A stretch of DNA of 41,582 nt from a virus, in the IMG/VR virus record IMGVR_UViG_3300037315_000124, positions 1 through 41,582 of that record. One strand, 5' to 3'. This document shows, in pieces, positions 3,001 through 41,582 of this stretch. Made by a program: the position numbers and the translations under genes. Below the pieces are notes generated by a model that ran no database searches, was not told the origin of the DNA, and worked only from the letters and a program-made list of their open reading frames with translations. Position 1 is the first letter of the stretch, and each line of letters opens with the position of its first letter.

Positions 3001-6000
3001 TGAGCAAAGCGAGGCCATTGACACTCATCTGCGTAAAATTAATTCGCTGAGAGAAATTGAGAGCACGTACGGCAGGATCGTAGAAAAAGTACGAACCCGT
3101 TACCAAGAAGACCAAGATGCCGACAAGAGACTTGATACCGATTTGGTGAATGAAATCCTAGCGGAGGTGGCGTACTTAGAAACGATACAGCTGACAACTG
3201 ACGATGTGCCTTTGCCAGCAGCCGATGCAGTTAATAGGCCGCTCGTCGAGGCAATCGAGGACATTCTTGATCTGCTACAACTGCACCATCCACAACTACG
3301 TGAATATCGTGCGAACGGTCGTGTCACGTTGTCCGATACTTTGCAAAACCAAATCGGTGACGTACGAATATCGTGGCTGGAAGAGAGAATGACCTCGTTT
3401 GGTGCTCGCGCTGCTGAAAAAGCAAGCACGATAGATAATGGCATAGTCGACCAAAAAAACAGATTGCAGGAATGGGAAGACCTCGTTTCGTATTACGAGA
3501 ATAACCCAGATGAGCTGGCAAAGTGGGATTCGCTCAACCAGCAGTGGATGAAGCTCTCAGGACGGTGGCACGAATTGGCTATCAAGTTTGCCATTCAGCA
3601 AGCAGCAATGAAAGGCGCTGAAGAGGTGCACTTTCCGACTGCATTTACAGTGAGCCGCGCAGAAAATTGGGATGGACAAGGCGACCCGGAAGAAGGGTTC
3701 GGCGGGGAGTATGATGACGCAGATGTACAGTTTGGAAACACAATCGACGCGGACGGTCGTGAATGGACAATTATTGAAGTGAATGATGATAACTCATTCA
3801 GGGCGGTGGCCGCTTTGGATGTAGAAGAGATTTACACGCTCTCAGAGGTGCGCAATGGTCTGTTTATTGATGCAGTAACTGAGTTTGATTCATCTATAGA
3901 TGCCGTTAATGAGTTTTATGACAACATCATGCAGGGTTTTGAAAATGACCCTGATGGTTCTGTGAATGAGGTCAAGGATATTCTGCGTTCTCAGTATCAA
4001 AAACTGGTACAAGACGAACGGAACGAAATTGGAAAATTAGAGGAAGCAATAGAGCGGTCGAAAAGGCAAATCTCCGGTATACGGAATGGAGATGTGACAT
4101 TTATACCCGAGGTCATTTCTAGAAAATACGGCGCTGCGTACGACTCATTCATGGATTTAAAGCGCAATGCTTCATTTTTGGATCCGCTTCCTGAAACCGA
4201 AGGTCGCCCGAGCGAACGAGTGACGCAACGTATGCGTGATTTGAAGTTCGATATCGCGCAGCGTATAGACCAGCAAGTGCAGGTACCGGATTCTATTGCG
4301 CGAGAGGCGCAGAGTGATGAGAGACGGGATCTTGCAGTACGGAGACACCTCAATGCTGATGTTGCAGTCTTTACAAATAAAGAAGAAGCAGACAGGTTCT
4401 ATAACGGGCTCCGTGAGAGCTTTGAGCGACGTCGACAACAAGTAGAAAAACGAAAGCAGTACGTCGATGAAACCGGAACAGAGCTGACGGAAGAAGAACG
4501 CAATGAACAAAAACAGGAGATAGATTTCGAGGCGGCGCTGTTCAATGTCATCGAGCCGGAACAGCATGATTGGTATAAGGGAGCAACCTTTCAGCAGAAC
4601 GCTGAAGAAGGCGGTGCCTACTACGTCTTTTATACAGTGCCAGACACAGCGGGAACAGGAAGGAATCGTGAAAGTGCTGAAGTGCCAGCGCCGGAAGAGC
4701 TTGTACCAACATTTGTTTCTGCAGAAGAAACAGACATCCAAAAGCGGCAAGATGCAATTCAACGCGCACAAAACAAAATAGAGATTCATCAGTCAAACAA
4801 GGAAGCGATAAACTCCATGGAGTATGACAGTGATACAGGTCTGCTCAGACTGCATCCACCCTCAGAAGATGGAATGCAGAAAGACCGAACGGTGGATATT
4901 GACATGACTGATGAAAATGAAATTGCTGAGTCGCAGTACCTCCGTGAATACATTTGGGAAAAAGCCCAAGAAGCTGCCGAGGAGATCGACAGTAATACAG
5001 CCGAATGGTTAGTCGAACAGAGGCACGCCGCGATTGTATATCAAGGGGAAAATGGACTTGGTGAAACGAACCTTGTCGCTGTGAGTAGCAGCGAAGCTGA
5101 TTTCAATGATTTTCCGCCACCTGCCGAAGCGGGTGCACGCAGCGATATCAATGAGCAGCGGCAAGAGTTTGAGCGAACTACAAACCTGAAAGACCCAGAG
5201 CTTCCGTTCCCGGCACTGCGAACAAGAGGTGACTTTAACCCCCAAAAAGCAGCGCTCTTTTACGAAGTGGCTCACCGCAAGTTTTTGCAGAAGCTACGGA
5301 AAGGAAACTATGAAGAAATTGTTGATCACACCGGATACAGCTGGCGTAAAACAGAGATAACGCCTGAAGACAAAGGCGCTATCGAATACTTCCAGTCTCA
5401 CGTCCCTGACGACATCGACCCACGCAACCGTGCGGAGCGTGTAGAACAGGCATACCGTGATGCTGAGCGCTCAGTTATCAGCGAGCTGTCGCAGACGACC
5501 TTTACGCAGGAGACTGCCGAGGTGCAGGAGCAGCTTGGCGTTGACCGAGAGGCATCAGCACTATACCCGGAATGGCTGCCGTCGGCACTTCGCAACCGCG
5601 GTCTCATCGACCGCGTGCTGCAGAAAATTGACAACGGTGAGCAGATGAGTGGCGACCGTCAGCAGCGCCTCTATGACCTCATACAGAACAAGGTCATTGA
5701 GCGAATGAACACGCAACAGGTGAACGAGCAGGTTATTAGTGAGCTTCAGAAGCGCTCACAGCTACGCGAGGAAGTGCAGCGCATCATGCTGCGCGAGGAT
5801 ACGCTGGAGCGCTACAAGCAAATGATTCCGCAAGGACGCACGCGCGGTGCCGAAACCAAGAAAGTCGTGCGTCAAGTAACCGGACAGGTGCGCAATTTAC
5901 GAGACTTCAACGAGCGCATGCGTGCACTCGCTCGTGGATACCGTGAAGGTACACGGTACGGTCGAAATGTGGTCAAACAAGTGCAACGTGAAGCGCTGTC

Positions 6001-9000
6001 GGTCATCGAGGAGCTACCTGCAGAGGAGCAAGGCAAGTTTCGGCGCACAATCGTCAACATACAAACACCTGAGCACCTCGAGAAGAAGCTGCCACAGATA
6101 CAGGAGCGCATTGAGCGAATCGTCGACCAACGTCGAAAGCGTGGGCTCAAAAAGCAAATCCGGAAAGAGCTGAAAAACATCAAGCCCAAGCGAGACCGCA
6201 CCGGGCTCGTGCGGGGCAGGTTTACTGCTGATACACAGAACAAATTGCAACTTATCAAAGACGCGCTCGAGGGTGACCGGCAAGAGGCACTGCAGCAACT
6301 CGAACAAAAGGTAGAGCAAGAGGCACAGAAAGACTCCAAGATTTTCACACAATCTGACATAGAGCAAATGGAAATGCTGCAAATGACAGGAATGAAAGAC
6401 ATGACGGCAGAGCAGCTTGAGTTCACGCTGAAAAATATCCGAAACCTGAAAGAGACCGGTCGTACGCTGCGAGAGCTGCAAGATTTCAACAAGCAGGAAG
6501 AGCTCGACCGACTGCGACAAACGTTTATTGATCGCGTTACCGGCGGCAAAGGTGTGGCGAAAGACATGCAGGGATTGCCACGTCGCGAAAAGGGTGCAGC
6601 AACACTGTTGGAGAACTATGCACCGGGCTTCAAGACGTGGGTTGATGCACACCGCGGTATCGAATTCGTATTTGAGTACATTTCTCGATTCGACAGCGCT
6701 TCCGAGCCGCTGCAGACGCCGTTCCATACGACCCTCATGCGACGTATCCGGGACGCCCGAGATGACCAAAATTCGACCCTCACTGAGTGGGAAAAGACGT
6801 GGCACAGCGCGTTTGCGAACTTCTATGACCTTGAACTGTATGGGCGCGACTACCGCAAGGCAATCAAGCAGCAAGCGCAAGAGGTAGACCTCGGCATCAC
6901 ACCGAAGGGAGCCGACCGAACGCTCAAAATGAACCGCTTTGAGCTTCGTAAGAAGTGGATGGAGATGCAGGATGAGTCGCTGATACCCACCTTTGAAAAC
7001 ATGGGGTGGGATGAGAGCGTGCGGCAAGCGGTCGACGCGGCGATGACTGATGCCGACAAGCGGTTTGCTGAGTGGCAGTTGAAAGAGTTCTACCCACGCT
7101 ACCGCGCACACATCAATCCGACATACCGATACTTTTACGGTGTTGATATGGGCAATATTGAAAACTACTCGCCCATTAAGCGCAGCGGAGGCGGCGAAGA
7201 CGTGCCGCAGCACGTACAGCTTGCACAAGACATTCTACGGAAATCGTCGACGAAAGCTGGCTCGCTCGTCTCACGTGTCAGCAACGTGAAGCCGCTCGAG
7301 TTCGTTGGCGACATGCAGATGATGACGCAACACCTGACTGAAATGGAGCACTTTCGTGCCTACTCAGAGGTTGTGTCAGACATGCGCCGCATTTTCGACG
7401 GTGACCTCATGGAAGCAATCAAGCAAAACCACGGCAATGCAACGGCGAAACAGATCAATAAACTGATTGACGACTTGGCGAGGGATGGCATTGATGCGTC
7501 ACACCGCTACGAGTTTCTTGACAAGGCGCGCAGCTGGTTCGCTGTTGGCGTACTCGGAGCAGATCCGGTCGCTACATTGAAGCAGCTGACGTCGTTCCCG
7601 GTGTACCTCACGGAGATGGATACGTCGACGTTCTTCGGCGGCATCCGTGACTTTTGGATGAACGACATGCGCGAAAAGGCACGTATACTGCTGGACACTG
7701 AATTCATGCGTTCCCGCTACTCAATGGGAGAGTTCGACCGCGACATAAAGATTGCATTCGATCAGGGCTCATCGAATAAGCGCATGGCTGGATTGGAAGG
7801 GTTCCGGCAAATGGTCATGGGTAACATTCGGCTTGGCGACACCGGAGCAATTCTACCCGGCGGATGGGCGAAGTATAAGCAAGAGTTTGAGCGACAGCTC
7901 GGACAAAGTCTGCCGTCAGATGCCGCAAGCATTCGGCAGTTGATAGAAGACAACCCACAGGCGCACAGGGAAGCGGTTAACGCATTTCGGAACACAACAC
8001 TCCGGACGCAGCAGGCGGGCAACGTGGAAGACCTCGGAGACATTCAGCGCGCCGGTTCATTCGGCAACCTGTTCACGTTATTCATGACGACGCCATTGCA
8101 GTATTGGCGCATTGAAGAGAACGCGTTCCGGAACTTAGGTGCGCTCGAAAAAATGGGCGGCAGCGTGCAACGCGGCAAGGTGAGTGACAACCTCAAAGTT
8201 ATTGCCATTATGCACGTCATCATTCCATCGCTGTTCCAGCTCGTTGCAGACGGCTTCGAGTGGCAAGAAGACAGACAGCTGCGCGCGGCGTTGCTCGGTA
8301 GCTTTGGCTACCCACTCATATTCGGCAACATGCTCGACACGATGGCGCGTGTGGCAACTGGCGACGACGTCTTTTCAGACAACCTCATGCCGTCCGGCAT
8401 TTCGCAGTGGGCAGATTTCATGGACGTCGGAAAGAATGTCTACAGCACGCTAGATGACTTCTTTAACGCAACTGTTGATGTCGAGCCCGAGCGACTGTGG
8501 GACACCATCACCGAGGCGGTATCGGTTGGCGGACAAGTAACCGGGCTACCCACCGAGCAGATCGTGACGACCACGAAAGGTGCGTATGAGCTGGCACAGG
8601 GACGCACACAAGATCCACGCGTGCTCTTTTGGAGTGACTATGGGCTCGACCGTGGCGGTGAGTTTGAAATGGCAAATGCGGAACGAGTGCTCACAGAGCA
8701 AGAGCGTCGCCAGTTCGACGCGCAGGTGGCTGATGCACTCGAGGATGGGCGCATCGATGTGGAGAAAGCCAAGCGATTACGTAACAAGATACAGCGTAAT
8801 CAAGCAGACATTAAGGCGCGGCAATACTGGGAGCAAACTCGTGGCTTGCCGCGCACGGAACGACTCCGGCGGTATAACCAGCTTTCAAACGATGTGAAGG
8901 ATGCTGTACGCGATATAGCTGACGAGGAAGCAATAAAGGATGCGCGTGAGTGGTGGCAGCAAACACGCGAATTGCCGAAACAAGAGCGCGTTGCGTCGTT

Positions 9001-9541
9001 CAAAAATCAGAACCCTGCTGTTCGTGAGAAGATTCGAGCGATTGCTGAACGTGAGCGCGAAGAAGAGCGTTTGCTCGAAAAGCTCGGTGCTCGCCCGCAC
9101 GATGAAGAGACATTCCTGCAGAATGTATCCGACCATTTGAAGGCAGTGCAAACAGACCCGATTCAAGCAGCACGGCTGCTGTTCAACGGGGAGCGCATAC
9201 GCCGGGTCGACTCAGGCGCCATCATTGTTGAGCGAATGCCGTTTGCAGCAAGCCAACGTATCCGGCGCGAACGTAACGCTTCTGATGAAGTCGAGCTTGA
9301 CCACATCATCCCGTTGCAGTTGGGTGGCACAAATGATGTAGACAACCTGCGACTCGTCGACAAAGAGCAGCACGAGGAATACACTCAAATCGGCAATATG
9401 CTCGGTGAGATGCTCCGGGATGGGCAGATTGAAGCTGACCGAGCACAAGAGCTCATTCGTGACTACAAAATGGGTGATATGTCTCGAGAGCAGATCATGA
9501 ATGAAATTGCGGAAGTCAGCGCGCAAGTCGAGCAAGACTAG
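2..9541 (+). CDS. Giant polyvalent virion protein, C-terminal 3,174+ residues (gene continues from the right end of the window)
   Basis: The frame is open from base 2 and continues the gene starting at 40863. The joined product is about 3,413 residues. Residue numbers here count from the TTG at 17. Residues 12-44 and about 150-170 are Gly/Ala-rich and hydrophobic. Residues 430-500 (H436, then IVTAYETS) resemble the barnase/EndoU/colicin/RelE-type RNase domains of polyvalent proteins. HESVH at 691-695 is a zinc-metallopeptidase HExxH motif. EIQSD at 967-971 with WHELAIK from 1184 marks the large polyvalent domain common in phage and plasmid giants. Residues 1800-2200 are charged and coiled-coil-like. 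Residues 2300-2390 and the hydrophobic stretches at 2728-2780 resemble late polyvalent domains. A 42-residue tandem repeat starts at 2934. An HNH motif (DHIIPL, then NLRL) starts at 3095. By family analogy it is packaged and enters the cell with the DNA to act against host defences; that role is inferred. It is followed by the lysis genes. Confidence 0.85.
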   Translation, partial: TDPAYLARGIGRNIPSLAFSVGVGAPVAAVGGGALAVGGAAFASTALLEGGAAYREARRHGASDEEAERALFITGLANGVLDATPIGRFLSRTPLGRQSLSRIRNRIARQTVEIGKRGGEQAGFEAGTESVQTVVSNAVQMEFDENRALLDDTAEAAFFGGVLGGGMSFAGDVVSSGARGVFPSAPRGGLNEGINFELNETLEDTREGATARVPRGTDLFGLYNDEAATHNALGRGFVFSDHSDDTDTDGVRTQTSRDITVYKPSNDERVKVLNGATPDVRTENARALLRETGADALAFPDFGGQNKLVFQNSDALDSLPRKRINTRAIRDDVTNQIQRDIDQSQTQDEFVRTREIEETFTAEGNRTAFTEENTVPVEPVSPELQPLVNNVDVLKVGVVRDNQNGLLVGRVSPNVSKAAARIRDLDIVLNRDNVQNINQKHGAVPSENLVLTINKPDHVVFFPNAGKGNRDMINFVRELPGGENIIVGAIRVNGFAIVTAYETSRQNLSSLVNKEGAQLVYTDMQNPDQLNVGRDKIATEPSGGTAAPSLITPSEVSEQRAVVALSAVRELDDSSITDVKELSREALRNVYRRGAPQDVTSATQRRVEQIAEYERSTIEERYQRIPADLAVNFDDSTPFISNQEAERVVRQFFDPDEVGVAFVSNIRTPEGAEAFGRYSNKMIEFVNNPHQTTPFHESVHAYLNLFVDVQRKRKILDEVRRKKRKPNWTDEQAEEQLADDFIRYIRRERKPQNLIGELFRRVKRFLQRLHPASAERLFQDIISRRRPMGVQVRTFTEDIQQVRRDFYQQPGQFTTKLFQLPDMQDRETVSQEFLRNTLRSKKSNLKGREQSFVEYVLDTHFQNTNKINTQELQERISEELLPVSLQETDNFAKYGITNPAFLGEDYAETFTIDERAEAKTFLIDTGYRYIDLPWHKATGVGHFRAAEVPGLLGHFRMAVMNVQGKRIAKVLEIQSDPIQDEKMERMTADDMMNYLRTKRDEQSEAIDTHLRKINSLREIESTYGRIVEKVRTRYQEDQDADKRLDTDLVNEILAEVAYLETIQLTTDDVPLPAADAVNRPLVEAIEDILDLLQLHHPQLREYRANGRVTLSDTLQNQIGDVRISWLEERMTSFGARAAEKASTIDNGIVDQKNRLQEWEDLVSYYENNPDELAKWDSLNQQWMKLSGRWHELAIKFAIQQAAMKGAEEVHFPTAFTVSRAENWDGQGDPEEGFGGEYDDADVQFGNTIDADGREWTIIEVNDDNSFRAVAALDVEEIYTLSEVRNGLFIDAVTEFDSSIDAVNEFYDNIMQGFENDPDGSVNEVKDILRSQYQKLVQDERNEIGKLEEAIERSKRQISGIRNGDVTFIPEVISRKYGAAYDSFMDLKRNASFLDPLPETEGRPSERVTQRMRDLKFDIAQRIDQQVQVPDSIAREAQSDERRDLAVRRHLNADVAVFTNKEEADRFYNGLRESFERRRQQVEKRKQYVDETGTELTEEERNEQKQEIDFEAALFNVIEPEQHDWYKGATFQQNAEEGGAYYVFYTVPDTAGTGRNRESAEVPAPEELVPTFVSAEETDIQKRQDAIQRAQNKIEIHQSNKEAINSMEYDSDTGLLRLHPPSEDGMQKDRTVDIDMTDENEIAESQYLREYIWEKAQEAAEEIDSNTAEWLVEQRHAAIVYQGENGLGETNLVAVSSSEADFNDFPPPAEAGARSDINEQRQEFERTTNLKDPELPFPALRTRGDFNPQKAALFYEVAHRKFLQKLRKGNYEEIVDHTGYSWRKTEITPEDKGAIEYFQSHVPDDIDPRNRAERVEQAYRDAERSVISELSQTTFTQETAEVQEQLGVDREASALYPEWLPSALRNRGLIDRVLQKIDNGEQMSGDRQQRLYDLIQNKVIERMNTQQVNEQVISELQKRSQLREEVQRIMLREDTLERYKQMIPQGRTRGAETKKVVRQVTGQVRNLRDFNERMRALARGYREGTRYGRNVVKQVQREALSVIEELPAEEQGKFRRTIVNIQTPEHLEKKLPQIQERIERIVDQRRKRGLKKQIRKELKNIKPKRDRTGLVRGRFTADTQNKLQLIKDALEGDRQEALQQLEQKVEQEAQKDSKIFTQSDIEQMEMLQMTGMKDMTAEQLEFTLKNIRNLKETGRTLRELQDFNKQEELDRLRQTFIDRVTGGKGVAKDMQGLPRREKGAATLLENYAPGFKTWVDAHRGIEFVFEYISRFDSASEPLQTPFHTTLMRRIRDARDDQNSTLTEWEKTWHSAFANFYDLELYGRDYRKAIKQQAQEVDLGITPKGADRTLKMNRFELRKKWMEMQDESLIPTFENMGWDESVRQAVDAAMTDADKRFAEWQLKEFYPRYRAHINPTYRYFYGVDMGNIENYSPIKRSGGGEDVPQHVQLAQDILRKSSTKAGSLVSRVSNVKPLEFVGDMQMMTQHLTEMEHFRAYSEVVSDMRRIFDGDLMEAIKQNHGNATAKQINKLIDDLARDGIDASHRYEFLDKARSWFAVGVLGADPVATLKQLTSFPVYLTEMDTSTFFGGIRDFWMNDMREKARILLDTEFMRSRYSMGEFDRDIKIAFDQGSSNKRMAGLEGFRQMVMGNIRLGDTGAILPGGWAKYKQEFERQLGQSLPSDAASIRQLIEDNPQAHREAVNAFRNTTLRTQQAGNVEDLGDIQRAGSFGNLFTLFMTTPLQYWRIEENAFRNLGALEKMGGSVQRGKVSDNLKVIAIMHVIIPSLFQLVADGFEWQEDRQLRAALLGSFGYPLIFGNMLDTMARVATGDDVFSDNLMPSGISQWADFMDVGKNVYSTLDDFFNATVDVEPERLWDTITEAVSVGGQVTGLPTEQIVTTTKGAYELAQGRTQDPRVLFWSDYGLDRGGEFEMANAERVLTEQERRQFDAQVADALEDGRIDVEKAKRLRNKIQRNQADIKARQYWEQTRGLPRTERLRRYNQLSNDVKDAVRDIADEEAIKDAREWWQQTRELPKQERVASFKNQNPAVREKIRAIAEREREEERLLEKLGARPHDEETFLQNVSDHLKAVQTDPIQAARLLFNGERIRRVDSGAIIVERMPFAASQRIRRERNASDEVELDHIIPLQLGGTNDVDNLRLVDKEQHEEYTQIGNMLGEMLRDGQIEADRAQELIRDYKMGDMSREQIMNEIAEVSAQVEQD

Positions 9542-11258: not shown

Positions 11259-11274
11259 CTTGTCCCCTTCAACT

Positions 11275-11303
11275 AGCCCGCTCTTTCGAGCGGGCTTTCT
11301 TTT
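11275..11303 (+). terminator. Rho-independent terminator of the late operon
   Basis: A perfect 9-bp GC-rich stem (11275-11283 with 11288-11296) has a TTTC loop and is followed by a T-rich tract to 11303. It lies 53 bases after the last late gene and is the clearest terminator in the window. It should end rightward late transcription before the divergent control region. Confidence 0.88.
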
Positions 11304-11312
11304 CCGCACGAA

Positions 11313-11348
11313 AAATCACACCCCCGTCGGTAGACGGGGGTGTGATTT
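11313..11348. terminator. Long perfect hairpin, probable terminator for leftward transcription
   Basis: A 16-bp perfect stem (11313-11328 with 11333-11348) has a GGTA loop. Read on the minus strand it is followed by five T residues, which fits termination of the leftward gene at 11475-11837. On the plus strand the following bases are a weak T-tract, so it may back up the terminator just upstream. Confidence 0.7.
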
Positions 11349-11414
11349 ATGGAGTACAGTCGAGGGCAATAGAGGTGTCCATTGACCGTAACCGGTAAAT
11401 AGCACTATGTCACC

Positions 11415-11438
11415 GTGGGGGAGTCATAACTCCCCCAC
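11415..11438. other. 10-bp perfect hairpin downstream of the leftward gene
   Basis: The left arm at 11415-11424 pairs perfectly with 11429-11438 (GTGGGGGAGT and its complement) around a CATA loop. It lies 36 bases beyond the stop of the minus-strand gene. No T-tract follows in either direction, so termination is uncertain. RNA stabilisation or a protein site is equally possible. Confidence 0.45.
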
Positions 11439-11474
11439 AACTATATTATATTTGCCGCAATAGCGCCTGTATAC

Positions 11475-11867: not shown

Positions 11868-11895
11868 GATATAGTGGTCAAAAAACATTTGACAA
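11868..11895 (-). promoter_or_regulatory. Possible leftward promoter for the DUF1064 gene
   Basis: On the minus strand TTGTCA (11895-11890), a 16-base spacer and TATATC (11873-11868) would start transcription about 24 bases before the ATG at 11837. Its -35 overlaps the -35 of the rightward promoter, so the two may compete. Confidence 0.4.
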
Positions 11896-11917
11896 CATGC
11901 AAGCGGTTGCATACAGT
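11889..11917 (+). promoter_or_regulatory. Rightward sigma70-type promoter of the early region
   Basis: There is a perfect TTGACA at 11889-11894, a 17-base spacer and TACAGT at 11912-11917 (4 of 6). It lies 41 bases before the first gene of the long rightward early operon and after the terminator cluster. The spacer contains GCAAGCGGTT at 11899-11908, which recurs at the same distance from a TTGAC at 26107. It may be an operator or a phage-specific promoter element. Confidence 0.7.
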
Positions 11918-17270: not shown

Positions 17271-17456
17271 ATGTCTATGGACGAGCGAAACGACACATTC
17301 AGCTACAAAGGGTGGCTGATATCCGATAACTTCCTGAAACGTGCGATGGCAGTCGTGGGCTACCAGTTCATCGGTACTATTGTACTCTACCTACTGCTGG
17401 TGGCCGCGGTGTTCATCATCGCATTTATCGTTGGGTTTGTAGGATCCTTGATGTAG
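17271..17456 (+). CDS. Small membrane protein, 61 aa
   Basis: A short polar start (MSMDERNDTFSYKGWLI) is followed by a long hydrophobic stretch, residues 25-60 (AVVGYQFIGTIVLYLLLVAAVFIIAF then IVGFVGSLM). It is long enough for one extended or two short membrane helices ending the protein. The ATG at 17271 follows the tandem repeat at 17243-17266. A longer upstream frame would run through hairpins and is unlikely. Size and topology would also fit a second holin or antiholin, but there is no lysin next to it. Confidence 0.55.
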   Translation: MSMDERNDTFSYKGWLISDNFLKRAMAVVGYQFIGTIVLYLLLVAAVFIIAFIVGFVGSLM

Positions 17457-17459
17457 GTG

Positions 17460-17487
17460 TTGACAGGTGTTTGGCACTTGTTACTAT
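17460..17487 (+). promoter_or_regulatory. Promoter upstream of structured non-coding region
   Basis: There is a perfect TTGACA at 17460-17465, a 16-base spacer and TACTAT at 17482-17487 (4 of 6). It starts 3 bases after a stop codon. Initiation near 17494 would make a transcript that begins just before the first helix of the adjacent RNA, which supports it being a real promoter. Confidence 0.55.
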
Positions 17488-17493
17488 CGAAGC

Positions 17494-17709
17494 AGTAGCG
17501 GTGACGAGCCCCGCTGTATCCCACACAACGCAGCTCGTCACGTGGCTTCAGCTGCCGTGTCCGGTATCGTGTCGTCCCGCACACGATCCGGCACGCGCTA
17601 CATCCGCAGTCAGTTTCCCTCTTTTGAGGAACTGCAGGGGTCGCAGAGAACGCACTGTCGTTCTCTGCCTACTGCCACACCGGACGTCAGCCCGCTTGTG
17701 GTGGTAGGC
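17494..17709 (+). ncRNA. Candidate structured RNA, five consecutive helices
   Basis: A 265-base gap without a convincing gene holds these helices: 17501-17509 with 17533-17541 (9 bp); 17556-17572 with 17581-17595 (15 bp, two single-base bulges); 17611-17615 plus 17618-17621 with 17626-17634 (9 bp, TTTT loop); 17643-17652 with 17659-17668 (perfect 10 bp); and 17669-17672 plus 17675-17679 with 17697-17707 (internal loop of TG against TG). A promoter lies directly upstream. The frames through it give Ser/Arg-rich, unfold-like peptides. I know no RNA family that matches. It could be a free small RNA or a long leader of the gene at 17723. Confidence 0.6.
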
Positions 17710-17722
17710 AGAGCAGGACAGT

Positions 17723-17899
17723 ATGGGTACAGCAGCACGAGACAACTACAATTGTGAATACGTTGAGCTGAGTGCGCAGAGCGAGCAGCAGCTACAGGAA
17801 GAAGCACAGTATTACCTTGACCGTGACTTCAGTATTCGCGAGCGGGGCAACCACAACCCCAAGTTCTATACAGTTGTTCTCTACAGAGAACGAGCATAA
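17723..17899 (+). CDS. Hypothetical protein, 58 aa
   Basis: A short gene starting at the ATG with T at -1. It encodes MGTAARDNYNCEYVELS, a Gln/Glu-rich helix (SEQQLQEEAQYYLDRDF) and a C-terminal strand (KFYTVVLYRER). The residue pattern is typical of real small soluble proteins. It ends 5 bases before the next gene and follows the structured RNA directly, so it may be regulated by it. No family is recognised. Confidence 0.5.
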   Translation: MGTAARDNYNCEYVELSAQSEQQLQEEAQYYLDRDFSIRERGNHNPKFYTVVLYRERA

Positions 17900-17904
17900 C
17901 CCGT

Positions 17905-18786
17905 ATGTTCCAACTCATCGTCGACGAAAACGACAAGCCCGTAGCGCTTCTCACCGACCTGAAACATCGCATCCACAACGAGAACATCTATTTGATGTCT
18001 CGTTACGAGGACGGCACGCGCACGTACGAGCCGATACAGCTCGGCGAGAAAAAAAGCGCAGAAGACACCACCGACGACACGAGTGAGGAGTGGCCGCCAG
18101 AAATTGATATATACCTGCGATGCCTAATAAACGACACGAGCGAGCAGTGGGTGCCGGAAAATGAAGAAACGTATTTCTTCGTAGAAACCGATGGTGAAGT
18201 TGCAGAAACATACTTTCTGAATAACCATCCGCAAGACACAGCAAGATGGAAAATTGGCAACTGCTTCAAAACCTACGAAGAAGCAAAAGCTGCAGCAGAG
18301 CGCGTGCGGCGGGCGTTAAAAGGTAACCAGTACAACACTATGGCACTACAAAAAGGACAACGTGTACGAATTGATACAGGTAATGAAGCACATATCACGC
18401 AAAAATGGTTCAACGGTCGAATCGGAATTCTTCTCAAAGAAGGCAGCGTGTCTTTCGTCGCTATCGATGGTGGTGACCAGATAGCAACAATTGACGATTA
18501 CGAACACCTCACCCCCGTCTCCCCCTCCATCGACACGTTGGTGAAGGGGGATGTGGTGGTAGATAAAGATGGTGACACACGTAAAGTGTTCGCAGTGATG
18601 GACGAGGTGTTTTTGCCATCTATTGGACACGTAAAAGCATCAGGATGGTTCCACAAAGAAAAAGCGAAGGAAGAATGCTGGCGCGTCGTCACTGAAGACG
18701 ACGAGCACACAGAACTCACCCTCCAGCAGGTAGCAGACAAGTTCGGCGTGCCGGTAGAGCAGTTGCGCATTAAAGATGACGAGTAA
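17905..18786 (+). CDS. Multidomain hypothetical protein, 293 aa
   Basis: Three parts are visible. Residues 1-75 are acidic and carry a 10-residue repeat, DTSEEWPPE and DTSEQWVPE (DNA at 18073-18102 and 18130-18159). Residues about 85-140 (YFFVETDGEVAETYF, WKIGNCFKTYEEAKAAAERVRRAL) match a small domain widespread in phage accessory proteins. From the internal ATG near 18340 (MALQKGQRVRIDTG) come two SH3-like beta segments and a helical end (LTLQQVADKFGVPVEQLRIK). The internal ATG has the same AACACT-ATG context as real starts here, so this may be two genes fused or a gene with an internal start. Function is unknown. Confidence 0.65.
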   Translation: MFQLIVDENDKPVALLTDLKHRIHNENIYLMSRYEDGTRTYEPIQLGEKKSAEDTTDDTSEEWPPEIDIYLRCLINDTSEQWVPENEETYFFVETDGEVAETYFLNNHPQDTARWKIGNCFKTYEEAKAAAERVRRALKGNQYNTMALQKGQRVRIDTGNEAHITQKWFNGRIGILLKEGSVSFVAIDGGDQIATIDDYEHLTPVSPSIDTLVKGDVVVDKDGDTRKVFAVMDEVFLPSIGHVKASGWFHKEKAKEECWRVVTEDDEHTELTLQQVADKFGVPVEQLRIKDDE

Positions 18787-19980: not shown

Positions 19981-19994
19981 AATCCTAAGTTGCC

Positions 19995-20150
19995 GCGGGC
20001 TGGTGGAATGGGTGGCACAACTGCGAAGCGGGGGTGTCGCAACCACCAGCTCACGCCAGCTTGGAATTGTAGGTAGCTATGGGCTTCGTGTGGAGCTATT
20101 AGCATAAATTGGTTGCTAGGCAAGGAAGCACGAAGTCTTTACCTGCCCGC
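19995..20150 (+). ncRNA. Structured intergenic region before the HTH gene
   Basis: The 198-base gap at 19981-20178 holds a 10-bp helix (19997-20006 with 20043-20052, one G-T pair) enclosing TGCGA/TCGCA (20022-20026 with 20037-20041). It also holds a 7-bp helix (20084-20090 with 20129-20135) and a GCGGGC/GCCCGC long-range pair (19995-20000 with 20145-20150). The long-range pair competes with the first helix. No protein-like frame spans it. It may be a leader RNA or two alternative folds. It does not look like a tRNA to me. Confidence 0.4.
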
Positions 20151-20156
20151 AATAGC

Positions 20157-20174
20157 ATTATCAAGTAATAGAGA
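20157..20174 (+). repeat. 18-bp duplicated leader, copy 1
   Basis: ATTATCAAGTAATAGAGA at 20157-20174 is repeated exactly at 20427-20444. Both copies end 4 bases before an ATG (20179 and 20449). This suggests a shared translation or operator element for the two genes, with AGAGA as a possible weak ribosome site. Confidence 0.6.
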
Positions 20175-20178
20175 CACA

Positions 20179-20418
20179 ATGGCGTGCATTAAACGAATTA
20201 GTAAAGAGTATATTGACTTGCGCGGCGCAAGAAAGCGAGCAGGTATAAGTTTGCAAGCGATGGCGAAAAAGCTAGATCGCTCCCCCTCATATCTTTCAGA
20301 CATAGAAAGTGAAAGACGCAATTGTTCTGAGCAAATTGTAATAAAATATAAGCAAAATGGGGCAATCTTTTGCGAGTGCAATCATAATGAGAATGAGCAA
20401 TGCTCGTTGTGTGCTTAA
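20179..20418 (+). CDS. XRE-type helix-turn-helix protein with Cys-rich tail, 79 aa
   Basis: The ATG at 20179 was chosen because it follows the duplicated leader; the longer frame from 20113 would run through the structured RNA. Residues 13-45 (LRGARKRAGISLQAMAKKLDRSPSYLSDIESERR) are a Cro/CI-like helix-turn-helix. The tail has CECNHNENEQCSLC, a likely zinc site. It is the only repressor-like gene in the window. With no integrase or second repressor nearby, it is more likely a regulator of the accessory genes than a lysogeny switch. Confidence 0.65.
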   Translation: MACIKRISKEYIDLRGARKRAGISLQAMAKKLDRSPSYLSDIESERRNCSEQIVIKYKQNGAIFCECNHNENEQCSLCA

Positions 20419-20426
20419 ATGATTGG

Positions 20427-20444
20427 ATTATCAAGTAATAGAGA
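20427..20444 (+). repeat. 18-bp duplicated leader, copy 2
   Basis: Identical to 20157-20174 and also ending 4 bases before an ATG (20449). It may be a binding site for the HTH protein encoded between the copies, or a duplicated translation signal. Confidence 0.6.
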
Positions 20445-20448
20445 TAGT

Positions 20449-20745
20449 ATGTTTGAGGAACCAAATAAGAATACATTAAATCATCTTTTCTGGGCGACGG
20501 GGGATTACGAGTATGACTCGCGTCCTGCAACAGAGAAAGAGATTGCTGATGCACGAGAGGATGCAAAAAAAGGCGATTGGATGGGCTTAGGACGGAGTTG
20601 TTGGGAGTGCAACAAAGCGCACGTTCGCTTGATAGATATGGAGAATATGAATTGCTTTTCTTGTGGGCGTATGTACCACAAGGGAATAGACATTACCGAC
20701 TACATCGGATCAGAACTAGAAGAGTACACGCACATTGGGCTGTAG
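20449..20745 (+). CDS. Zinc-ribbon protein, 98 aa
   Basis: Starts at the ATG after the second copy of the duplicated leader. The acidic N-terminal half (YDSRPATEKEIADAREDAKKGDW) is followed by CWECNKAH and CFSCGRMYH, a four-Cys zinc ribbon with CxxC pairs 22 residues apart, and an acidic tail. Such ribbons bind nucleic acid or host RNA polymerase, but no specific target can be read here. It is the last gene before the terminator at 20746-20777. Confidence 0.6.
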   Translation: MFEEPNKNTLNHLFWATGDYEYDSRPATEKEIADAREDAKKGDWMGLGRSCWECNKAHVRLIDMENMNCFSCGRMYHKGIDITDYIGSELEEYTHIGL

Positions 20746-20777
20746 GCGTAACAATAAGCGTGTTGTTGCGCTTTTTT
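20746..20777 (+). terminator. Rho-independent terminator closing the early/middle region
   Basis: GCGTAACAA (20746-20754) pairs with TTGTTGCGC (20763-20771), 9 bp including one G-T wobble, with an 8-base loop and then six T residues (20772-20777). It starts immediately after the stop at 20745. The T-tract overlaps the -35 element of the next promoter, giving a compact boundary between modules. Confidence 0.75.
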
Positions 20778-20804
20778 GATAGTGAACGTGTTACATTATA
20801 AGAT
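20776..20804 (+). promoter_or_regulatory. Promoter of the packaging module, giving a near-leaderless transcript
   Basis: TTGATA at 20776-20781, a 17-base spacer and TAAGAT at 20799-20804 (TATAAG two bases upstream is an alternative -10). Transcription would start about 20809-20811, at or beside the ATG of the small terminase gene at 20811. The mRNA would then be essentially leaderless. Confidence 0.6.
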
Positions 20805-29131: not shown

Positions 29132-29132
29132 T

Positions 29133-29276
29133 GGTGCGTTCGCGCACCCGACGAATAAGTGGTGTTCGGCGATTTCCGCTCTCCCTACACACATTCGTCG
29201 GGTACGCGAGCGTGACACACGCTCGGCTTCCCTCGGGAAGTACCGTGCACTGCGTTTTCAACCGTTTTCCGCAGTG
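29133..29276 (+). ncRNA. Candidate structured RNA upstream of the scaffold gene
   Basis: The 171-base gap is packed with helices: GGTGCG-TTCG-CGCACC (29133-29148); a perfect 11-bp pair 29146-29156 with 29193-29203; CGAGCGTG-ACA-CACGCTCG (29207-29225); 29226-29231 with 29236-29241 around CTCG; and CACTGCG (29248-29254) with CGCAGTG (29270-29276). No T-tract follows, so it is not a terminator. It could be an RNA-processing or mRNA-stabilising element raising scaffold and capsid output, a packaging RNA or a separate small RNA. No known family is recognised. Confidence 0.55.
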
Positions 29277-29302
29277 TGGACGTGTAATAAAAAACAAACC
29301 CT

Positions 29303-30025
29303 ATGCCAGAACCAGATCAAACACAGAACACCGGGAGTGCACCTGCTGATGGGTCGCAGGTGGACTCGACCGAGGGCGCAGCCGACGCAGGCGCTATAGA
29401 AGAACCGTCGGGCACTGGCGGTGATGCTGCCGCCGCCGGTGCAGCAGGTGAAGGCGATCAGGGCACTGACCAGCAGGGTGATGCTGCCGAAGGGCAGCAG
29501 CCCAAGCAGAACATCCCTGAAGAGCCACCCGAGCGCAAAGCATTCTTCATTGGCATGCGCAAGGGCAAGCAGCAAGCGCGCCAACAGCAAGGCGATGCAC
29601 AGCAGGGCGGCAACGACCCATATGCTGAGTACGACCCCAACGACCTTGAAGTCGTTGACCAGCGCGTACAAGAGCACATCCAGCCCTACGCTGAGCAGCT
29701 TCAGCAACAGCAAGTGGAGCGGGACGTGGAGGATTTCGTGCAGCAGAACCCAGAGTTTCAGCCCTACAAGGACACTGTTCGGAACTGGGCAATGCACGAG
29801 TCACGAAAGAACCTCCCCGTTTCGTCCATCTTCTACGAAGTTGCTGGGCAAGACTTGCTGAACATCGGCGCGCAACGCGCCCGAAGCAGCGACGCACAGA
29901 AAATGGAGACTGGCGGCAGCAGCGGTCACTCGACACGCAACGAACCTGCCGCGAAGAATCCCAGTGAGATGACTTCTGCAGAGTTCGAGCAATACAAGGA
30001 AGACGTGCGTCGCGGACGGGTGTAG
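29303..30025 (+). CDS. Putative scaffolding protein
   Basis: 240 residues, directly before the major capsid gene. The N-terminal 90 residues are acidic and rich in Gly, Asp, Gln and Ala, probably disordered. The middle (RQQQGDAQQGG, EQLQQQQVERDVEDFVQQ) is Gln-rich and helical. The C-terminal end is charged (MTSAEFEQYKEDVRRGRV), which fits the capsid-binding helix of scaffolds. Scaffolds direct procapsid assembly and then leave. Identification is from composition, size and position, as scaffold sequences are poorly conserved. Confidence 0.68.
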   Translation: MPEPDQTQNTGSAPADGSQVDSTEGAADAGAIEEPSGTGGDAAAAGAAGEGDQGTDQQGDAAEGQQPKQNIPEEPPERKAFFIGMRKGKQQARQQQGDAQQGGNDPYAEYDPNDLEVVDQRVQEHIQPYAEQLQQQQVERDVEDFVQQNPEFQPYKDTVRNWAMHESRKNLPVSSIFYEVAGQDLLNIGAQRARSSDAQKMETGGSSGHSTRNEPAAKNPSEMTSAEFEQYKEDVRRGRV

Positions 30026-33343: not shown

Positions 33344-33361
33344 GGATGAGAGCAGGACACC

Positions 33362-36265
33362 ATGGCATATACACCCTCCCAAAAAGTCACAGTTCTCATA
33401 GTAGGCGGCGGCGGCGGTGCATATTCATCAGGTAGCGGATTTGACGGTTCAGGTGGCGGCGGTGCTGGTGGTTTTCAAGAGATTGAACTAGACCTCGATT
33501 CGCTTTCAGGCGACTATACTGTAGAAGTTGGTGCCAAAGGTTCAAAAGGTTCACCGGGTAGTGACGGCAGCCAGTCAAGTGCGTTTGGATATACATCTGC
33601 TGGTGGCAATCATGGCAAGCAACCAAATGGAGGTGACTCAGGAAGCCCCACCATACATGCGGGCGGCGGTACTTCTGACAGTGCGGCAGGAGGTGGCGGC
33701 GGTGGCTCCGGCGGTGATGGACAAGATGGATATACTCAGGGTGGCGACATCATAGGAGGTGATGGTGGTGCCGGTACAGCGAGCGGTATTACCGGTTCTA
33801 ACATTGAATACGCCGGTGGCGGTGGTGGCGGTGGTTTGAACTCTAATGGGAGTGAACTTTCTACACCGGGCAGTGGTGGCAGCGCAGCCAACTACAACAA
33901 TGCAGGCCAAGCATTCGATGGGATTGTCGTCATTCGGTACAACAAAAACGATGTTATATCAGCTTCGGGTGGTGATGCAGTGTACGATGACGGTGAAGAG
34001 CGAGTACATGAGTTCACAACAACCGGTACTGCTACATTTTCTATATCAGGTTCAGTGTCATCAACGACCTCGGTGAGCACACAGGAGCTTACTTCGAGCT
34101 CATTCGGAGTCCAAGTCACCGCTACCGCTTTCGTTGATCTTTTGTTAGCAGCTCAACAGCTGGCTGTTCAAGCGCCGCTATCGTCAGTAGATGACATAAC
34201 TATTGGCGTAGCAACGTATAACCTCACTGCATCAACAATTCTTGAACAGTTTGATGCGACGGTATTGCTCAACGACTCTGGGATAACGATAGACGCGGAT
34301 GCAGTCAGAGAAAAGAAAGCAAATACGGGTATAGCGACGACACAATCCGCAACTCAGCTGCGTGCTCAACAAATCGGTGCGAACGCAAAGCACGACCGGG
34401 TGTACGCAGTGTCGACGGTGTCAGTTCATGTCAACGCAGTTGCACTCGGCGGCTTGCCACACAAGAACACGGCTCAGAAGTTGCAAGTGACCGCTGTTCC
34501 TATCAACGGCGTGACGTTTTGGTACAACTCTCTTAAGGTTAAAGAAGTAGTGACAGGTGGAAACAACGACCAGATTACATACTTTTTCAACAACTCGTTC
34601 AATGATGGCGACCTTGCGCTGCACATTCAATTCAATGGTAACTCGACGGAGTTTGGTAGCTTGGAAATTCCCGGGTATGATCAAATTTTTTACGGAGCTC
34701 AGAATGACACAGTGATATATGCAGAAGAAGATACGCGGGAAGACCAATCAACTATCAATACAGAAGACGCAGACCCCAATAGTGGAGATGTAGCGGGTAT
34801 TATGTATCGAATCACTGGTCACGCTGGCGTCAGTGATAGTAGAGCGCAATACAGTAGTTCCATGGCAGACATTGCGCCATCTAACCCGCATTCGCTCATC
34901 GTGCACTTTGCCGGTGCAGAAAACAGCAGTCCTTCGCTCGGTGATAGCAACATAGACTATGGAAGCGCTACAACGAACGTTTCATACTCTAGTAATGCCT
35001 ACCTTACAGCACAGCACGGCTTTCGGGTTGCACCGAGTTCAAAAGATGATTTGACCGCAAACGGTAGCGGCACGTCGGCGCAAGCTGTGATAGCGGTTGC
35101 GCCACAAACCGCGAACACGCATATCAACGTGTTCGCACAAAAACTGCGCACTAATTCGAATGTCACGTATTCTTCAGCAACTCTTGAAGATTTTGAAGAT
35201 GGCTTCAGCAATCAGTGGGTACAGACGACAAACTTCGAGCTATTCAATTCTCCAGCCCGCGGTACGCAGTCCGCTGGGCACGATACTGGTGGGCAACCCA
35301 TTGATGCGATCTACCGACCGTTCGATGGGTTTGAAAGACAACCCGACAAATGCTCGTTTTACTGGCAGGAAACGTCAAATCAGAGCGGATTTACAGTGCA
35401 GTTCAAAGATGGCAACGGCGACAGTGTTTTGGAGGTGGGCGGCAACAACCCCGAGTGGGAGCTGGATGACGGCGATGGACGTAAAACGCCGTACAACGAA
35501 AGCAATAATTACGGTGACTGGATATACTACGAGTTCACGTTCGATTGGCAGAACGGCACCTACGATTACTACATGGAAAATGCGACCGACAACATAACGC
35601 GCAGCGGCACTCGGGCGCTGATAAAGAGCACAGGCATCGAAGAAATGCGCATCAACGACTCGAATTCTGATTTTGGTAGCGCTGACCACATGTGGTTTGA
35701 TGACATTTCCTTTAGTGGCGTGAATGTGCCGCAAAATCAGGAATACTTTGGGGTAACCTTTCGAGAGGATTACAAGGTTGAGATTCGCAACGCGCTCAGT
35801 ACACACGTCAATCGCCCACACAATCCACATGCTCGCGTCATTTTGAATCCAACTGCAGCTCAAAGCTCACAAACAGTGAGTGCGGAAGCCGTGGGGGTTG
35901 CAGGTGCCGGTGCATTTACATTGAGCCAAGTCGCTGCACAGCAAATGACCGTCGTGCAAAACGCGTTTGCCGTTGATGCGAGCAATATTTACAGCGTCAC
36001 GGTGACGACTGCTGCATCAGAGCCGGTACAGTTGAACGCAGTACTTGTCTCGAACGACCAAGACCGGATACAGAGTGTGCAATCGCTGCAACTGCAGACA
36101 GGGCAATCTGCCGTGCAAGACAGTGGTGGTGTGTGGGACACGGTGCCGTCGGCGCACAATGCGAATGATTGGAGCGTGAAAACACGTGATGATGGCTCAT
36201 GGAGCACGCGTGCGCGCGATGGAGGTCACGGCGCGTGGACTACTGTGCCGCGAGACACTTCATGA
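33362..36265 (+). CDS. Tail fibre / receptor-binding protein with Gly-rich and jelly-roll domains
   Basis: 967 residues. Residues 8-195 are a Gly-rich domain (VLIVGGGGGAYSSGSG, SAAGGGGGGSGGDG, AGQAFDGIVVIRY), the adhesin-like module seen in phage tail tips. Residues about 220-600 are repeated Ala/Val/Gln-rich strands. Residues about 605-810 look like a LamG/concanavalin-type carbohydrate-binding jelly roll (FEDGFSNQWVQT, then WIYYEFTFDWQNGTYDYY and DHMWFDDISFSG). The end (WDTVPSAHNANDWSVKTRDDGSW) carries short Trp repeats. The composition and nucleotide bias differ slightly from neighbours, consistent with faster evolution of a host-recognition protein. It probably binds surface glycans. Confidence 0.72.
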   Translation: MAYTPSQKVTVLIVGGGGGAYSSGSGFDGSGGGGAGGFQEIELDLDSLSGDYTVEVGAKGSKGSPGSDGSQSSAFGYTSAGGNHGKQPNGGDSGSPTIHAGGGTSDSAAGGGGGGSGGDGQDGYTQGGDIIGGDGGAGTASGITGSNIEYAGGGGGGGLNSNGSELSTPGSGGSAANYNNAGQAFDGIVVIRYNKNDVISASGGDAVYDDGEERVHEFTTTGTATFSISGSVSSTTSVSTQELTSSSFGVQVTATAFVDLLLAAQQLAVQAPLSSVDDITIGVATYNLTASTILEQFDATVLLNDSGITIDADAVREKKANTGIATTQSATQLRAQQIGANAKHDRVYAVSTVSVHVNAVALGGLPHKNTAQKLQVTAVPINGVTFWYNSLKVKEVVTGGNNDQITYFFNNSFNDGDLALHIQFNGNSTEFGSLEIPGYDQIFYGAQNDTVIYAEEDTREDQSTINTEDADPNSGDVAGIMYRITGHAGVSDSRAQYSSSMADIAPSNPHSLIVHFAGAENSSPSLGDSNIDYGSATTNVSYSSNAYLTAQHGFRVAPSSKDDLTANGSGTSAQAVIAVAPQTANTHINVFAQKLRTNSNVTYSSATLEDFEDGFSNQWVQTTNFELFNSPARGTQSAGHDTGGQPIDAIYRPFDGFERQPDKCSFYWQETSNQSGFTVQFKDGNGDSVLEVGGNNPEWELDDGDGRKTPYNESNNYGDWIYYEFTFDWQNGTYDYYMENATDNITRSGTRALIKSTGIEEMRINDSNSDFGSADHMWFDDISFSGVNVPQNQEYFGVTFREDYKVEIRNALSTHVNRPHNPHARVILNPTAAQSSQTVSAEAVGVAGAGAFTLSQVAAQQMTVVQNAFAVDASNIYSVTVTTAASEPVQLNAVLVSNDQDRIQSVQSLQLQTGQSAVQDSGGVWDTVPSAHNANDWSVKTRDDGSWSTRARDGGHGAWTTVPRDTS

Positions 36266-40862: not shown

Positions 40863-41582
40863 ATGGCGTTCGAGCAGTTTCAAGACATTGCATTCGGAGA
40901 CCGTGGCGCCGGCAGTGGTGGCAGTACGTCACAGCTTCAGCAGCGTGATGCGCCCGCACAGACAGGGGGCGTTGATGGACGCACTGAGCCAAACGACTTC
41001 ACCACCACAGTGCTCGACAACCTTGAGATTGCTGATGACTTCAGCTCAGGTGAGTCCGCTGATGCGGAGCCGCAATCAGCTCAAGTAACGGGCGGCACAG
41101 AAACTGAGGCAATCACCAATCCACTTGCACAGTTCTCGCCGGAGCGGCGCGGCGCTGCAACAAAGGTGCGCCTCAACAGCTTTACTCCCAAACGTGGGTT
41201 GCAAATTGACTCAACCTCAGAAGCGCTCACGGCGACACAAGCGGGTTCCACGCTGCCCGGAACTGAGACTGACGTGAAAGGCACCGTCGAAATGTCTCGT
41301 GATGTGGCAAAGGTAGGTGTGGCGCTCGGGAAGGTTCCGTTTACAGAAGAAGGCAGAACCGAACTCTCGCGTGGTGTCACTGAGGACATACTCGGCACGT
41401 CCTCATACATTCACAGCGCGCTCTCTGAGGGTGCTGAACAGATTGGCTTTGAAGAAATCAGCCGTTCACTTGAAAACACAGCAGACCGCGATGCGGATTT
41501 GCGGCGCACCTTCTCTCGTGTGAACGCGCCAGTCAGTGATGCAGAGTCGCTGCAGGAAGGAATCACAGATCCTGCATACTTT
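40863..41582 (+). CDS. Giant polyvalent virion protein, N-terminal 239 residues (continues at position 2)
   Basis: The ATG at 40863 has AGT before it. The frame is open to the end of the window and continues in frame at the left end after the 18-bp overlap. The merged protein is about 3,413 residues. This part is soluble and low in complexity: a Gly/Ser/Gln-rich start, then AITNPLAQFSPERRGAATK at residues 83-101, nearly identical to residues 416-434 of the preceding protein, then a Thr/Ser-rich stretch and helical sequence (VAKVGVALGKVPF, SEGAEQIGFEEISRSLE). The final codon reads TTT here but TTG at the left end, presumably a contig-end error. Confidence 0.82.
   Translation, partial: MAFEQFQDIAFGDRGAGSGGSTSQLQQRDAPAQTGGVDGRTEPNDFTTTVLDNLEIADDFSSGESADAEPQSAQVTGGTETEAITNPLAQFSPERRGAATKVRLNSFTPKRGLQIDSTSEALTATQAGSTLPGTETDVKGTVEMSRDVAKVGVALGKVPFTEEGRTELSRGVTEDILGTSSYIHSALSEGAEQIGFEEISRSLENTADRDADLRRTFSRVNAPVSDAESLQEGITDPAYF
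41564..41581. repeat. Right copy of 18-bp terminal direct repeat
   Basis: Identical to positions 1-18. Joining the two copies gives a circle of about 41,563 bp with the giant gene intact across the joint. The repeat is most simply an assembler overlap; a true short terminal redundancy is less likely because it lies inside a coding region. Confidence 0.85.

Follow-up and report, generated by a model that had tools for sequence, protein, structure and literature searches.

We analysed a 41,582-base phage contig from IMG/VR (IMGVR_UViG_3300037315_000124; "the window" in what follows) and find that its positions 17494–17722 fold, by computation, into a strong RNA structure whose final hairpin closes over the start of the next gene and cannot coexist with a perfect 10-bp hairpin that uses the same strand. 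Our preferred reading, to which we assign a probability of slightly under one half (about 0.48), is that these 229 nt form a structured leader at the 5′ end of a phage mRNA, transcribed from a promoter at 17460–17487 into the open reading frame (ORF) that begins at 17723, and that the 3′ half of this leader acts as a translational switch.

Computed folds and the occluded start

The 229-nt region has a folding energy of −113.5 kcal/mol (z −6.19), and none of 200 shuffled sequences folds as well. The value for the complete 266-nt interval is practically the same (z −6.18), and the two halves of the structured region, scored separately, reach −5.5 and −5.3. When segments of equal length were scanned along the genome, only 5 of 1426 were as extreme, four of which cover the double terminator region at 11.2–11.5 kb and one of which lies mostly in the portal gene. 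The initial annotation had described a density of perfect inverted repeats far above chance, and the folding z-scores are likewise far beyond chance. Structure in this genome is strongest at 11265–11460 of the window, where terminator-like hairpins (GCCCGCTCTTTCGAGCGGGC-TTTCTTTT and a 16-bp CACACCCCCGTC hairpin) are situated between converging genes.

In the computed fold, the 5′ part of the region (17495–17601, plus strand) is a four-way junction without any unpaired base at its centre. It is closed by a 6-bp helix (GUAGCG/CGCUAC; 17495–17500/17596–17601), which encloses three hairpins: 17501–17541 with a 9-bp helix (17501–17509/17533–17541), 17542–17555, which depends on two G-U pairs, and 17556–17595, whose 15 bp are arranged as 7+4+4 with two bulged U residues. 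This module has an energy of −55 kcal/mol (z −5.5), and a single structure makes up 33% of its ensemble. It is followed on the same strand by a small linker hairpin (17604–17640; 5+4 bp with a bulge) that is not above chance on its own (z −1.3).

The 3′ part contains two hairpins on the plus strand. The first, H5 (17643–17668), is a perfect 10-bp helix (17643–17652/17659–17668) with the loop CACUGU. The second (17654–17722) ends at the base preceding the ATG and consists of a lower stem (17654–17668/17708–17722), in which 13 of 15 positions are paired, and an apical stem (17669–17707) with an 11-bp helix, which is present in both states. Since strand 17659–17668 is common to H5 and the lower stem, the two helices are mutually exclusive. 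All five helices listed in the initial annotation are present (9, 15, 5+4, 10 and 11 bp in the computed fold), but they are not arranged back to back: a sixth helix encloses the first ones, and the base of the last cannot form together with the 10-bp hairpin.

We followed the exchange between the two helices by folding the growing transcript, an approach that gives the equilibrium at each length rather than true kinetics and includes neither ribosomes nor proteins. The probability of H5 is near 1 up to base 17710, falls to 0.4–0.5 at 17713–17716 and is near 0 from 17719–17722, by which point the lower stem has replaced it; the closed form is better by 8–9 kcal/mol. A competing helix of at least 10 bp with the 5′ arm arises in 0.16% of shuffles of the 50 upstream bases.

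Opening the start at 17723 costs 18.2 kcal/mol, the highest value of 36 starts in the genome (mean 7.1, sd 3.8). The lower stem also contains a Shine-Dalgarno-like stretch, GAGCAGGACA (17711–17720, plus strand), with a duplex energy of −7.8 kcal/mol against an anti-Shine-Dalgarno sequence of the E. coli type. The starts of this phage are A-rich and mostly without Shine-Dalgarno sites (mean duplex energy −2.8 kcal/mol, compared with −3.2 kcal/mol in shuffles). Because of this, the Shine-Dalgarno reading of the stretch is uncertain; an unstructured start should, on the other hand, matter more than usual in such a phage. The sequence GAGCAGGACANNATGG is found at the start of two genes (17711–17726 and 33350–33365 of the window), whose starts rank first and second in occlusion among the 36. 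We do not interpret this as homology, since the two starts (17723 and 33362) form the best-scoring pair but score barely above the next pairs, which is not significant among all pairs.

Genomic setting, promoter and downstream genes

Judged by codon usage, the stretch between a small ORF that ends at 17456 and the ATG at 17723 is non-coding. The codon scores of all ORFs inside it lie between −0.21 and −0.47 bits per codon, whereas most neighbouring genes have values of +0.07 to +0.32, in agreement with the initial statement that the interval encodes no credible protein. The same annotation had placed the region among genes of host-takeover type. This description is not upheld, as PHROG and Pfam give no match for the neighbours apart from replication/recombination genes upstream, including a gene for a DnaD-like helicase loader approximately 1.6 kb from the structured region, and a weak transglycosylase match downstream. 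The flanking genes are orphans according to tblastn of the neighbours against 75 relative loci, and the protein encoded at 17905 and the DnaD protein found no relatives in IMG/VR.

INPHARED holds no close DNA relative of the contig. Its ends carry identical 18 bases (CACAGATCCTGCATACTT; 1–18 and 41564–41581 of the window), the record describes it as linear, and it is probably a complete genome from a circular assembly. The only relative of its terminase among genome contigs is in a Bacteroidia MAG, which does not establish the host.

The putative promoter (plus strand) is of the sigma-70 type and consists of TTGACA (17460), a 16-nt spacer and TACTAT (ending at 17487), preceded by the TGn of an extended −10 element; the predicted transcription start is at about 17494. 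With 10 of 12 consensus positions, it ranks best among five sites within 14–21 kb, and the plus strand of the whole window has two sites with at least 10/12, each in intergenic DNA. The promoter of the initial annotation is thus recovered. Nevertheless, the match alone is weak evidence, because shuffled sequence yields 1.7 such sites per strand (0.17 with TGn), and the promoter type is uncertain. No full match to promoters of the Bacteroidota type (TTG...TAnnTTTG) was found anywhere in the window. A dyad in the promoter spacer was discarded as a special feature, since 17% of random 30-mers are equally good. A second TTGACA promoter-like site (11889–11917) is situated upstream of recombination genes, and its spacer holds the perfect dyad ATGCAA-GCGG-TTGCAT, a possible repressor operator.

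The first gene after the region is a 58-aa ORF (17723–17899, plus strand) without a family match, whose codon usage is phage-like: its codon score of +0.215 exceeds the 99th percentile of wrong-frame ORFs (0.12). A 293-aa ORF without assigned function (17905–18786, plus strand) would be the second gene of the proposed operon, which may end at the next strong terminator-like site (20744–20783, plus strand), where 13 pairs are followed by TTTTGATAGT. Between 17494 and 17722 we found no terminator hairpin with a U run, so that the region does not have the make-up of a transcription attenuator. The initial annotation had proposed an RNA of approximately 215 nt ending near 17709. There is no terminator at this position, the last helix extends to 17722, and 17723 begins the ATG of a probable gene; these three observations favour a leader over a free RNA, and 17494–17722 appears to be the leader at the 5′ end of an operon of approximately 3.3 kb.

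Further downstream, at 19981–20750 of the window, we observe a second strong non-coding fold (19985–20150, z about −4.6). It precedes two low-GC ORFs of atypical codon usage, the starts of which share a 30-nt repeat (20152–20181 and 20422–20451), and the segment looks like a recently acquired piece.

Relatives and other structured RNAs of the phage group

Rfam 15 assigns no family to the window at gathering score, and permissive thresholds bring up nothing but eukaryotic miRNA/lncRNA models with scores far short of gathering, consistent with the initial annotation, which had recognised no known family. ARAGORN detects no tRNA or tmRNA. Homologues of 17494–17722 were absent from viral contigs, INPHARED and PLSDB, collections that may omit near relatives: neither blastn in phages and plasmids nor an exact 22-mer search in IMG/VR found any, and blastn of the region in 75 relative loci gave no credible match. 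A search with a covariance model of the 5′ module (17494–17603) recovered the module itself and its own reverse complement and nothing else in 76 sources, which leaves no set of relatives in which the conserved ligand-binding domain of a riboswitch could show.

Structured RNAs of a different kind do occur in this phage group. One lies in the intergenic region directly upstream of the scaffold/capsid genes (29132–29303 of the window), which is structured in many related contigs. A covariance model, R2, built from 13 relatives with the window left out, finds the copy of the window at 29158–29287 (E 0.005, search of the window alone) and gives 27 more matches, spread over 26 relative contigs. The relatives in which we noted this RNA are L006, L007, L009–L011, L020, L021, L023, L029, L035, L036, L038, L042, L043, L047, L048, L053, L090–L094, L097–L100 and L102. 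In the three modelled helices, 12 of 17 pairs are changed on both sides and 93% of cells are paired, counts that are flattered by an alignment fitted to the structure; most of the signal comes from the third helix. The covariation score exceeds those of all 500 shuffles and all slid controls. The motifs of this RNA are UUGGCGA and GUUUU-ACCCC-AUUUU, and several members have one strand that serves both as the 3′ base of the first hairpin and as the 5′ strand of the second, so that the base of the former competes with the latter. It is absent from Rfam in the loci tested. This scaffold-leader RNA is a structured RNA family supported by covariation and separate from 17494–17722, and it is probably the more valuable of the two findings. 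The idea that our element is a second copy of it was rejected, since R2 has no match to 17494–17722.

A family of long-hairpin RNAs is found in the recombination/early region of relatives, directly upstream of genes (L057:3299–3445 and 8873–9016, L060:5543–5690 and L075:12486–12624), with two copies in one phage (L057) and the sequence CTGTCCGTCGTCTCCCATT ... GGCGAGACGGACAGTAAGGC. It is found neither in Rfam nor in the window. Pattern matches in IMG/VR outside these three phages lack the 3′ motif and look like chance. Another relative, which is AT-rich (L062), has several very strong hairpin elements (4051–5720 and 8626–8775), two of them Y-shaped with similar ends of the AATTA(A)AAAGCC type.

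Alternative readings, proposed mechanism and comparison with known leaders

Four other explanations were weighed. The region could be a processing and stability leader without switching, in which the long hairpin shapes the mRNA by serving as a 5′ barrier or as a site for RNase III, like those of T7 early RNAs, and H5 and start occlusion are by-products. The last hairpin, with 13 of 15 positions paired and the 11-bp apical helix, is long enough for RNase III, other intergenic regions of the phage and its relatives are likewise hairpin-rich, and T7 and T3 have RNase III sites (PMC5371410). Such a leader would, however, explain neither the perfect 10-bp helix that competes for the same strand, given its frequency in shuffles, nor the exact end of the hairpin at the ATG, and we consider it fairly unlikely. 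The free-standing regulatory or anti-defence RNA of the initial annotation (about 215–230 nt) is unlikely: the region has its own putative promoter, is highly structured and is non-coding, yet it has no 3′ terminator, adjoins a coding ORF and has no relative in Rfam. The wider description, a structured RNA with its own promoter that belongs to no described family, agrees with the data, whereas this free-standing form is less likely than a leader.

That the inverted repeats work at the DNA level, as a replication origin, packaging site or recombination site, would suit the DnaD-like helicase loader gene upstream. We nevertheless judge it very improbable, as the region is GC-rich without an AT-rich stretch or iterons, the GC skew does not change there, the terminase genes are far away, and hairpin 17542–17555 needs its two G-U pairs, which are supported in RNA only. 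An equally poor prospect is that the repeats are young or decaying and without a selected role. The lack of homologues and the orphan flanking genes would agree with this, but 266 idle bases are rarely kept in a compact phage genome, both halves of the region independently have z below −5, and perfect helices would erode.

According to our preferred reading, a 5′ leader with a switch in its 3′ half, H5 would form during transcription and leave the bases preceding the start codon unpaired. The last 15 bases, once made, could then invade H5, since they are similar to its 5′ strand and can make initial contact with its loop (CACUGU versus ACAGU), and the start site would thereby be covered by the long hairpin. 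Accordingly, the gene at 17723 would be open briefly after synthesis and closed thereafter. Because the closed form is energetically better, the equilibrium without a trigger should be the off or repressed state, possibly after a short open period during synthesis; this speaks against the reading, as does the lack of homologues and, with them, of covariation. RNase III cutting (a guess), the binding of a protein or ligand, or ribosomes that load early might keep the start open or re-open it; RNase III opens an occluded start in lambda cIII and adhE (PMC5371410). The four-way junction may provide stability or a binding platform, which is likewise a guess. It is quite unlikely that the region represents a new class of leader RNA in which the junction responds to a factor of the host or the phage and thereby sets the strand exchange at the start codon during transcription, so that the first gene is translated in a timed pulse.

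If the preferred reading is true, the region would be a compact case of a leader in a phage mRNA whose strand exchange during synthesis times translation, and such a switch would occur in a phage mostly without Shine-Dalgarno sites. Together with the scaffold-leader family, it suggests that structured leaders not covered by Rfam control expression in this phage group.

The region resembles the long-hairpin RNA of L057, L060 and L075 in having a long hairpin directly before a gene and GGACAGUA near the 3′ end, but membership in that family was rejected, as a search of the window with the covariance model of the family, R3, gave no match up to E 10. With the scaffold-leader RNA it shares a hairpin array before a gene start and, in several members of that family, the use of one strand by two alternative helices; unlike that RNA, it contains neither of the two scaffold-leader motifs. 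In the lambda N leader and at the RNase III sites of T7 early mRNA, too, stable hairpins precede a gene start and follow a promoter or another gene. The strand-exchange arrangement is additional here. The leader of lambda cIII adopts two alternative mRNA structures. Our region differs from it in its length of 229 nt, its four-way junction and the conjectural role of RNase III, and a sequence relation is not expected. As in cIII, however, two mutually exclusive structures, here computed folds only, are found at the ribosome entry site of a phage gene, and one of them occludes the start. Translational control in cis by strand exchange, with a logic like that of lambda cIII, is most likely the function that such an arrangement would serve.
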